From the NCBI GenBank assembly GCA_003222205.1, contig QHVC01000107.1, positions 1-38,728 of the forward strand: a DNA stretch of 38,728 nt. Reading direction: 5' to 3'. The DNA comes from Gemmatimonadota bacterium (GTDB lineage: Bacteria; Gemmatimonadota; Gemmatimonadetes; Gemmatimonadales; GWC2-71-9). Position numbers and translations under genes: made by a program. Below are positions 1 through 2,696 of the stretch, in pieces (within the stretch, counting starts at the first letter, position 1; the number at the start of each line of letters is the position of its first letter). The notes under the pieces were generated by a model, which searched no databases, was not told the DNA's origin, and saw only the letters and a list, made by a program, of their open reading frames with translations.

Positions 1-737
1 CCGACGCGCGCGAGTTGGCGAGCAGTCGCGCGGAGCCGGTGTCGGAAAAGGAGAAGACCGCGATCAGCCGCGACGCCGCGATCCTGATCTTGGCGTTCGC
101 GCTTGGCTATACGCTGCTCGGGTACGACCTGGTGATGTCGCTGGCGCACAAGTGGGTGAGCAACCTGTACGGCGCATTCTATTTCATGGGCAGCTTCCTC
201 GCCGCCTTGATGGCGACCGCCGTCTTCGCCATCGCGATGCGCCGCCGCATGGGGTTGGGCGCGCTCTACTCCGCCCGCCAGCAGCACGACCTCGGCAAAC
301 TGTGCTTCGGGTTCACCGTGTTCTGGGCGTATCTGATGTGGTCCCAGTTCCTGGTGATCTGGTACGGCAACATGCCGGAAGAGACGTTCTTCGTCTTCTA
401 TCGGTTGTGGGGCCCGTGGCGGCCGGTCGGGACCGCCGTGTTCCTGCTCGTGTTCGTGATCCCGTTCATCGGCCTGCTCGGCGTCAAGCCGAAGCAGTAC
501 GCTCCGACCATGGTGGGCTTCGCGCTCGTCAGCCTCGTCGGGATCTGGCTCGAGCGCTACCTCGAAGTCGTGCCCTCGATCAACGGCGGCGCCGGACCCG
601 CGATCGGGCTGCCGGAGCTGGGCGTGACGGCGCTCTTCGGAGGCCTGTACCTCCTTTCGATCGCCTGGTTTGCCGCCCGCCGGCCGATGCTGTCTCCGCG
701 CCTCGCCGCCGACACCCTCGAACGCGAACAGCATTGA
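1..737 (+). CDS. actF: Alternative complex III quinone-binding subunit ActF-like (5' partial)
   Basis: The reading frame is open from base 3, so the gene starts before the window; the TTG at 15 in the ORF track is probably internal. The visible 240 or so residues are an integral membrane protein with about six hydrophobic helices. Phrases such as GYDLVMSL, FYFMGSF and FVFYRLWGPW resemble the C-terminal half of ActF, the NrfD-like subunit of alternative complex III (quinol:electron-acceptor oxidoreductase). This subunit sits in the inner membrane and helps form a quinol site. The full family is about 400 residues, so roughly 60 percent is seen. Two blue-copper lipoprotein genes follow on the same strand, which fits a cupredoxin as electron acceptor. 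The alternative ActC is less likely given its position at the end of a cluster and its size. The family is recalled, not searched. Confidence 0.8.
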   Translation, partial: DARELASSRAEPVSEKEKTAISRDAAILILAFALGYTLLGYDLVMSLAHKWVSNLYGAFYFMGSFLAALMATAVFAIAMRRRMGLGALYSARQQHDLGKLCFGFTVFWAYLMWSQFLVIWYGNMPEETFFVFYRLWGPWRPVGTAVFLLVFVIPFIGLLGVKPKQYAPTMVGFALVSLVGIWLERYLEVVPSINGGAGPAIGLPELGVTALFGGLYLLSIAWFAARRPMLSPRLAADTLEREQH

Positions 738-775
738 GGGGTATGTTTCTCCCGGGAACGATCATGGGAGGCACG

Positions 776-1147
776 ATGAAGCGGTTGCTGGTTCTATTCG
801 GAAGCGCGGGGATCGCGTTCGGCATCGCGTGCAGCAGCAACCCCAGCGGCAACGGGAACGGGTGCGAGTCGACGGGCGCGAACGTCACGGTCAACGCCCT
901 GGACAATCAGACCTTCGACAAGACGAACTTCACCATCTCCGCCGGGTCGAGGGTTTGCTGGCAGAATTTCGGCACGCTTTCTCACACGGTCACTGCGAAT
1001 GCGAACGCGCAGGACACGACCTGGAAGCTCGATGCTCAGCTGAACCCCGATCTCATCGTGCTGTACTCGTTCGGCAAGCAGGGCGTCAACTACACCTACT
1101 ACTGCAAAATCCACCCCGGCATGACCGGCACGATCCAAGTCCGCTGA
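776..1147 (+). CDS. Cupredoxin (type-1 copper) lipoprotein
   Basis: This 123-residue secreted protein has a hydrophobic N-terminus ending at a cysteine (GIACSS), so it is probably a lipoprotein. The copper ligands are visible: a His in SHTVT, then Cys, His and Met in YYCKIHPGM. The CxxHxxM spacing is the short ligand loop seen in amicyanin. The start at 776 is chosen over upstream in-frame ATGs because GGGAGG lies about 5 bases before it and the signal peptide begins there. It follows the actF-like gene by 38 bases and could be the electron acceptor of alternative complex III, as auracyanin is in Chloroflexus. That role is inferred from position. Confidence 0.85.
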   Translation: MKRLLVLFGSAGIAFGIACSSNPSGNGNGCESTGANVTVNALDNQTFDKTNFTISAGSRVCWQNFGTLSHTVTANANAQDTTWKLDAQLNPDLIVLYSFGKQGVNYTYYCKIHPGMTGTIQVR

Positions 1148-1166
1148 ACTTGCCCGCGGACGGCGC

Positions 1167-1198
1167 CAGGGGCTCCGGCAATCCGGCCGGGGCCCCTG
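1167..1198 (+). terminator. Hairpin after the first cupredoxin gene
   Basis: CAGGGGC at 1167 pairs with GCCCCTG at 1192, and an inner CCGG pairs with CCGG. No T-run follows, so it may be a weak terminator or an mRNA-stabilising hairpin between the two cupredoxin genes. Confidence 0.4.
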
Positions 1199-1262
1199 AG
1201 ACGTCTTGAGGGGTAGGACCGGGCATCTCGGCAGTCCCCTAGTGCAACCTGTGGAGGCGATC

Positions 1263-1622
1263 ATGCGATTGGCGATGTTCGTCGGGATCGCGGCGGTGCT
1301 GGCGCTGGCGACATGCAAGGATTCCTCCTACGGGACGGGCGGGGGATGCACCCCCACCGCGACGCAGGTGTGTATGGTCTCGAGCACCTTCAGTCCGCTC
1401 AATCGCACCGTGACCCACCCCGCTACGGTGCAGTGGATCAATGGGGACGGCATTACCCACACGGTCACGAGCGATCCCGGCTCCGCCGAGACCTACGACC
1501 AGACGGTCGTCGGCGGGGGCACCTTCTCCTTCACGTTCAATAATGCGGGAACGTACACCTACCACTGTACGATTCACGGAGCTCCCGGGACCCGAATGCA
1601 TGGAACGATAACGGTGAACTGA
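1263..1622 (+). CDS. Cupredoxin (type-1 copper) lipoprotein with long ligand loop
   Basis: This 119-residue secreted protein has a hydrophobic leader ending LALATC, a plausible lipobox. The copper ligands are His in ITHTVT, then Cys and His in YHCTIH, and Met in TRMHG. The ligand loop is CxxHx6M, longer than in the preceding cupredoxin (CxxHxxM), so the redox potentials or partners may differ. The ORF track begins at a TTG at 1206, but ATG 1263 with GGAGG about 6 bases upstream and a leader starting MRLAMF is much better. Likely a periplasmic, membrane-anchored electron carrier. It is the second of two cupredoxins after actF and is followed by a strong terminator. Confidence 0.83.
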   Translation: MRLAMFVGIAAVLALATCKDSSYGTGGGCTPTATQVCMVSSTFSPLNRTVTHPATVQWINGDGITHTVTSDPGSAETYDQTVVGGGTFSFTFNNAGTYTYHCTIHGAPGTRMHGTITVN

Positions 1623-1643
1623 GGAGAGCCCCCGGCACGAGCG

Positions 1644-1674
1644 AGCGCCCGGAGCGGACCACGCTCCGGGCGCT
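1644..1674 (+). terminator. Strong hairpin terminator of the actF/cupredoxin operon
   Basis: A perfect 13-bp stem (AGCGCCCGGAGCG with CGCTCCGGGCGCT) encloses a 5-base loop 22 bases after the cupredoxin stop. The tail TTAGCTT is only moderately T-rich. It separates this operon from xdhC. Confidence 0.7.
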
Positions 1675-1706
1675 TAGCTTCCGGCCATGGAAGAGATCGG
1701 AGCCTG

Positions 1707-2696
1707 ATGAACATCTGGCGGGTCGCTGCGGACCTTGCCCGCACGAGCGGCGCGGGCGCTCTGGCGACGGTCGCGCGCACCGCTGGCAGCACGCCGGTCC
1801 CCGCCGGGACCAAGATGCTGGTGAGCGAGGGTGGGCGACTGCTCGGGACAGTGGGGGGTGGCTGCGTGGAAGCGGACGTGCTCCGCGCCGCGGGCGAAGC
1901 GCAGACGCGGCGACGGCCCGCCCTGGTCACCCACCATCTCAACGCCGACCTCGCCGGCGACCTTGGCCTCTCCTGCGGCGGCACCGTCGAGATCTTCGTC
2001 GAACCGCTGGTCGCCGACCCCGAGTACGTGGCGGCGCTCGAGGCCGCCGCAGCCGCGGACGCCGGCGTGGTCACGACGGCGACCGCGTGGGATGTTGCCG
2101 CCGGACCCTTCAAGACCTTCGAGCCGCTGCCCCCCGGCGCCGAGCCGGGGGTTCCGGCCGCGCTCTCGGCCGACCGCCGCTTCGTCGTCGAGCGGTTCGC
2201 CCTCGCCCCGCGCGTGCTCGTGTTCGGTGCCGGCCACGTCGGTGCTGCCATCGCGCGCGCGGCGGCGGCGGCGGGGTTCCGGGTGGTGGTCGTTGACGAC
2301 CGCTCGGAGTACGCCGACCCCGGCCGGTTCGGGGGCGAAATGACGGTGCTGGCCGGCGGAGTGGAAGACGCCCTGACGCGATTCCCGCTCACCGCCCGCG
2401 ATGCCGTCGTGGTCGCCACGCGCGGGCATCGTCACGACGCCCTGATCGTCGAGCGGGTGGCGCCGTCCCCGGCGGGTTACGTCGGGTTGCTGGGGAGTCG
2501 CCGCAAGCAGGCGGTGCTCACCAAGGCGCTGACGGCGGCCGGTGTCCCGGCCGAGAGTCTGGCGCGCATTCGCGTCCCCGTCGGCCTGGCCATCGGCGCC
2601 GAGACGCCGGAAGAGATCGCCGTAAGTGTGGCCGCGGAGCTGATCGAGTGGCGGCGGGCGGGGACGGGCAGAGTCGGGCGGAGTCGGGCAGGGTAG
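1707..2696 (+). CDS. xdhC: XdhC family protein (molybdenum-hydroxylase maturation)
   Basis: The 329-residue protein has the two XdhC/CoxF parts: an N-terminal domain with TPVPAGTKMLV and GTVGGGCVE, and a C-terminal Rossmann domain beginning VLVFGAGHVG with an acidic VVVVDDR at the end of the second strand. YVGLLGSRRK and IGAETPEEIAVS are typical late motifs. XdhC proteins bind molybdenum cofactor and protect or deliver the sulfurated cofactor to xanthine-dehydrogenase-type enzymes. No such hydroxylase is in the window, so the client is unknown. ATG 1707 has GGAG a few bases upstream. The last codons run into a long hairpin shared with the convergent anti-sigma gene. Confidence 0.88.
   Translation: MNIWRVAADLARTSGAGALATVARTAGSTPVPAGTKMLVSEGGRLLGTVGGGCVEADVLRAAGEAQTRRRPALVTHHLNADLAGDLGLSCGGTVEIFVEPLVADPEYVAALEAAAAADAGVVTTATAWDVAAGPFKTFEPLPPGAEPGVPAALSADRRFVVERFALAPRVLVFGAGHVGAAIARAAAAAGFRVVVVDDRSEYADPGRFGGEMTVLAGGVEDALTRFPLTARDAVVVATRGHRHDALIVERVAPSPAGYVGLLGSRRKQAVLTKALTAAGVPAESLARIRVPVGLAIGAETPEEIAVSVAAELIEWRRAGTGRVGRSRAG

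Follow-up and report, generated by a model that had tools for sequence, protein, structure and literature searches.

The protein reduced by alternative complex III (ACIII) has been established for few organisms only, and one such partner, the copper protein auracyanin, is membrane-tethered. Roseiflexus ACIII has been described as transferring electrons to auracyanin, and the same transfer has been proposed in Chloroflexus (PMC8552683, PMC3150298). Within the Gemmatimonadota, a 2022 survey found ACIII by KEGG in <10% of genomes; its matching passages name no acceptor, and auracyanin and plastocyanin go unmentioned in its text (PMC9426454). In the open-access passages that matched ACIII together with cupredoxins, plastocyanin or blue copper proteins, no cupredoxin genes directly behind actF are described for a nonphototroph, subscription journals being mostly outside this coverage. 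We analyzed a complete contig of 38,728 bases (C2; here, the window) from the draft genome of a Gemmatimonadota bacterium (2.97 Mb, 217 contigs, estimated completeness of 98.6%), in which two cupredoxin genes, cup1 and cup2, follow actF (Table 1). This arrangement probably represents a respiratory ACIII with dedicated lipid-anchored cupredoxins that would carry its electrons to a terminal oxidase.

The 5' end of the window falls within actF, so that the upstream act genes lie outside it. A second contig of this genome, C136, to which an NrfD search led, encodes residues 1 to 215 of ActF; both pieces were recovered in the ActF search, and the reverse complement of C136 shares an exact 170-base overlap with the start of the window, giving a joined ActF of 403 amino acids. 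The gene order on C136 is ActA (with five CxxCH heme motifs), ActB, ActC, ActD and ActE (with one CxxCH motif). The best matches to solved structures are 8k9e_A for ActA (7e-26), 6lod_B for ActB (7e-140), 6f0k_C for ActC (8e-135), 6f0k_D for ActD (6e-15), 6f0k_E for ActE (1e-16) and 6f0k_F for ActF (6e-25). The partial frame in the window matches ActF of Rhodothermus marinus and the ActF subunits from the three remaining solved ACIIIs; its match to ActC is only weak. Relatives, e.g., G018, carry an unbroken actA-to-actF order on single contigs, which supports the join. The ACIII operon is complete, with actABCDEF in order and every subunit closest to its solved ACIII counterpart, in keeping with the set that defines ACIII (pentaheme ActA, Fe-S/MopB ActB, NrfD-like ActC and ActF, ActD and monoheme ActE). 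The initial annotation, which had recognized an ActF-like C terminus ahead of the cupredoxins and assigned it to ACIII, was therefore correct in both respects. A second NrfD match in the genome (contig C127) was rejected as an ACIII ActC, as it belongs to a separate molybdopterin/Fe-S complex. ActF was found at an E value of 1e-30 or better in 92 of 101 sampled genomes of the same taxonomic order, compared with the published KEGG-based figure of <10% for ACIII in Gemmatimonadota genomes. An xdhC-like gene (molybdenum hydroxylase maturation) is kept right after the ACIII block in many genera.

Table 1. Positions of the features discussed, numbered from the first base of the window
Feature	Position	Strand	Remarks
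actF, 3' part (residues 160-403)	3..737	+	truncated at contig end; phmmer match to 6f0k_F, E 6e-25
Ribosome-binding site before cup1, purine-rich	766..771		GGGAGG
cup1, lipoprotein-type cupredoxin, 123 aa	776..1147	+	His70, Cys110, His113, Met116 (CxxHx2M); 38 bases past actF
Strong GC hairpin in the cup1-cup2 interval	1167..1198	+	z -3.4; no T-run
Ribosome-binding site before cup2, purine-rich	1253..1257		GGAGG
cup2, lipoprotein-type cupredoxin, 119 aa	1263..1622	+	His66, Cys102, His105, Met112 (CxxHx6M); 115 bases past cup1
Strong GC hairpin 3' of cup2, 14-pair core	1643..1675	+	z -4.2; no T-run
xdhC-like gene	1707..2696
cup3, plastocyanin-like lipoprotein, 153 aa	9621..10082	+	CLPHVALGM (CxxHx4M)

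Both cupredoxins have intact ligand sets, and their C-terminal copper loops (YYC-KI-H-PG-M in cup1 and YHC-TI-H-GAPGTR-M in cup2) are exactly those initially described. Against the Pfam Copper-bind model, cup2 scores 33.7 bits (cutoff, 21.2). The more divergent cup1 exceeds the cutoff in the whole-genome scan alone (24 bits; E value of 1.2e-4) and has no match when searched against Pfam by itself; its identification rests on that scan and on structure models. AlphaFold models of both proteins, built from a 17-sequence alignment, have core pLDDT values of ∼95 and retrieve amicyanin and plastocyanin structures in foldseek searches at E values of ∼1e-7 to 1e-6; as modeled, cup1 and cup2 have a cupredoxin fold. 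The purple cupredoxin of Nitrosopumilus (5fc9) is also among the best fold matches, and the designation "blue" is therefore an assumption. Auracyanin is absent from the sequence matches of cup1, cup2 and cup3, and auracyanin B (1qhq) ranks 46th in the cup2 fold search. Each N terminus consists of a short charged segment and a hydrophobic stretch followed by a cysteine (FGIA-C and LALAT-C). The boxes FGIAC (cup1) and LATC (cup2) each deviate from the strict lipobox consensus at one position; the presumed lipobox cysteine, the His, Cys, His and Met ligands and a tryptophan are nevertheless invariant in all 17 divergent aligned relatives. These features suggest that cup1 and cup2 are periplasmic, lipid-anchored type 1 copper proteins, presumably with copper bound.

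Presumably, cup1 and cup2 are cotranscribed with the act genes. The initial annotation placed both genes before a terminator: strong GC hairpins do follow cup1 and cup2, but neither has a T-run, and a consensus terminator scan of the plus strand called nothing there or elsewhere. The hairpin behind cup2 possibly marks the end of the operon; that which separates cup1 from cup2 counts against the reading of both proteins as dedicated ACIII partners.

The position directly behind actF (the slot) was compared across relatives: the DNA 3' of actF was extracted from two collections, and profiles representing the slot cupredoxins and cup3 were run against it. The relatives identified by ActF are metagenome-derived Gemmatimonadetes genomes, most of which bear soil-depth sample names. 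Where ActF is at least 60% identical, 25 of 27 genomes have a cupredoxin directly behind actF, with all four ligands in 24; the genes lie on the same strand as actF, mostly at gaps of <140 bases. When near-identical loci were merged, the automatic count for this group was 22 of 24, a cupredoxin in L179 (in a long open frame) having slipped past the position filter. No slot cupredoxin was found in 47 distinct loci at 41 to 59% ActF identity or in 14 at ≤40%. In several of the 41 to 59% loci, the gene after actF is either xdhC or one that we take, from our own reading of its sequence, to be carboxymuconolactone decarboxylase-like. Each close genome has 3 to 11 PF00127 matches, and we estimate the probability of chance adjacency to actF in one genome at ∼0.2% (assuming ∼3,000 genes). 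This conservation across the clade makes a role for the cupredoxins as ACIII partners likely.

The slot protein is nonetheless dispensable: it is absent from two genomes of genus g31 (G030 and G051) with intact ACIIIs, and the copy in G040 (L089, 8077 to 8466) has lost its Cys and second His ligands (YHSTVQ...), which suggests that it is heading for decay or a copper-free role. Slot occupants form two clades, split at 100/99 support, and members of genera g15 and g25 carry either type or both. The two clades thus interchange within genera, and the slot outlasts any single protein; the change of occupant may reflect replacement or differential loss from an array. Tentatively, and as a broader proposition that is rather less secure, the ACIII of this clade could be a quinol:cupredoxin oxidoreductase of aerobic, nonphotosynthetic respiration with a cupredoxin as its dedicated but exchangeable last partner, the slot being refilled repeatedly from different families. 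The lipid-anchored cupredoxin is perhaps a tethered seventh subunit of ACIII.

The initial annotation had inferred two redox tunings for the cupredoxins of the window genome. Most genomes have a single copy, and the His-to-Met spacings of slot proteins (2 [n = 14], 4 [n = 6], 9 [n = 5], 6 [n = 2] and 7 [n = 2]) vary freely between close relatives; in G018, the relative with the same cup1-cup2 pair, they are 4 and 2 versus 2 and 6 in the window genome. In engineered sites, loop length tracks reorganization energy, and two variants of equal length lie 120 mV apart in potential (PMC7480511). Tuning by loop length was rejected, as the lengths are not conserved and length is a poor predictor of potential (PMC7480511).

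A third copper protein gene, cup3, is present in the window and is absent from the initial annotation. Its best match is a chloroplast plastocyanin (E value of 9e-14), but it scores 65.2 bits against the NCBI plastocyanin equivalog TIGR02656, below the cutoff of 87.85, and is therefore plastocyanin-like only. Its CxxHx4M loop is constant in complete copies among relatives. Of the close loci that could be tested, 14 of 16 have a cup3 gene downstream of actF on the same strand, as do 26 of 36 loci at 41 to 59% identity; none of nine far loci does, and cup3 is never on the opposite strand among the loci scanned. The distance from actF is 2 to 11 kb in many relatives and 2 to 3 kb in many of the 41 to 59% loci. 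Genus g31, which lacks cup1 and cup2, retains cup3, and its synteny with ACIII extends over much of the family, including genera with no cupredoxin in the slot. As a candidate carrier, cup3 is at least the equal of cup1 and cup2, although its position downstream of ACIII may be inherited synteny. Extended to the slot, this would make cup1 and cup2 surface lipoproteins unrelated to ACIII in function. A block of xdhC, anti-sigma, sigma and von Willebrand genes is likewise conserved in the clade, with which cup3 may ride along, and the two-clade pattern could in part have arisen by differential loss from a tandem array present in an ancestor. Two cupredoxin clades occupying one slot within single genera are, however, unlike passive inheritance of a single gene, and we regard mere synteny of cup1 and cup2 as very improbable.

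The remainder of the respiratory chain bears on where the electrons of ACIII could go. A search for the cytochrome b of bc complexes (PF00033) found none in the window genome at its estimated completeness, whereas it was positive in 8 of 14 control genomes; a competing bc complex was rejected on this basis, which leaves ACIII as the sole complex III found in the genome. Cyclic photosynthetic electron flow was likewise rejected, since no photosynthetic reaction center was found in the window genome, nor in any of the 12 close genomes searched. Nitrous oxide reductase was rejected as a recipient: NosZ is absent from the window genome, which has only weak matches covering the CuA-type C-terminal region of the model (two of these fall within CoxB genes), and a true NosZ occurs in G038 alone of the 12 close genomes. 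The G038 gene (G038:C142:11622-13361) is complete and belongs to the Sec-dependent class of nosZ (TIGR04246).

Two heme-copper oxidase loci lie elsewhere in the genome, away from ACIII: a caa3 type on C41, with CuA and a fused cytochrome c domain, and an aa3 type on C133, with CuA only. The latter locus (L053, 5367 to 14386; G000:C133) also encodes a 572-amino-acid cytochrome bd-like membrane protein, di- and monoheme cytochromes c and a 239-amino-acid cupredoxin-like protein (CNVHGWM), and it recalls the bd-like oxidase cluster of Nitrospina (PMC3578206). In the favored scheme, menaquinol would be oxidized by ACIII, electrons would pass through the heme subunits ActA and ActE to the tethered cupredoxins, and these would reduce either the CuA-only aa3 or the caa3 oxidase; both the direction of flow and the recipient oxidase are predictions.

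Alternatively, ACIII could pass electrons to c-type cytochromes or directly to an oxidase supercomplex, the slot cupredoxins being accessory or a side branch and cup3 the main copper carrier, if any. Contig C104 encodes a small cytochrome c, several other cytochromes c are present in the genome, and both the C104 protein and the cytochrome c fused to caa3 count against the cupredoxins as acceptors, as does the survival of genus g31 with cup3 but no slot cupredoxin. The C104 gene, however, sits directly behind a pyrroloquinoline-quinone dehydrogenase-like gene (presumably a quinoprotein dehydrogenase, from its opening residues) and not near ACIII or an oxidase, and the maintenance of the cupredoxin slot in nearly all close genomes also speaks against this alternative. 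Precedents exist in R. marinus, in which ACIII reduces HiPIP or cytochrome c, and in Flavobacterium johnsoniae, in which it reduces aa3 even without ActE (PMC8552683). On balance, we consider transfer to cytochromes or directly to an oxidase rather unlikely. The initial proposal that the cupredoxins accept electrons from ACIII thus survives with reservations: the conserved slot and the failure to find a cytochrome b or a reaction center favor it, whereas the small cytochrome c, caa3 and a genus with an empty slot do not. As a reading of gene order, it is well supported, although a conserved neighborhood does not by itself prove physical contact.

A further alternative, that the cupredoxins are copper-handling or oxidase assembly factors of the AcoP, CopI or CopC type rather than carriers, draws on the cupredoxin AcoP, which gives optimal cytochrome c oxidase activity (PMC4059628), and variable metal loops would fit a weak redox constraint. 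This seems improbable, as the H-C-H-M type 1 set is invariant in the alignment (17/17), with one ligand-less exception, and the genes adjoin those of ACIII, which is without copper, rather than oxidase genes. In addition, the CopI model gives only 20.5 bits on cup3 (cutoff, 280) and does not match cup1 or cup2.

Because one clade has a gene for a candidate acceptor immediately after the operon, the identity of the acceptor can be addressed with small, readily expressed proteins. If the cupredoxins are the partners of this complex, copper-based electron transfer from ACIII extends beyond phototrophs. Individually, the three proteins resemble known cupredoxins in part. cup1 shares with amicyanin, which takes electrons from methylamine dehydrogenase, the CxxHx2M spacing and has amicyanins among its best folds, but identity is ∼20% and the score is far below the equivalog cutoff. 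cup3 resembles plastocyanin (Pfam Copper-bind) in its CxPHx4M loop but is lipoprotein-type and occurs in a genome without a reaction center. AcoP of Acidithiobacillus ferrooxidans is likewise a single-domain respiratory cupredoxin, although it is tied to cytochrome c oxidase and not to ACIII (PMC4059628). The complex itself has all six subunits and the actABCDEF order of the ACIIIs of R. marinus and F. johnsoniae; the acceptors there are HiPIP, cytochrome c or aa3 directly (PMC8552683), while here cupredoxin genes follow actF. As in Chloroflexus and Roseiflexus, ACIII occurs with small single-domain cupredoxins as proposed acceptors, with two copies in a single genome. Unlike in the auracyanin system, the cup genes directly follow actF, encode lipoprotein-type proteins with a CxxH(x2-x9)M loop, have amicyanin, plastocyanin and purple cupredoxin as best folds and belong to a group in which the 12 close genomes searched are without a reaction center. 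The arrangement therefore appears to be a variation on the auracyanin-type pairing with ACIII, in bacteria that lack a reaction center.
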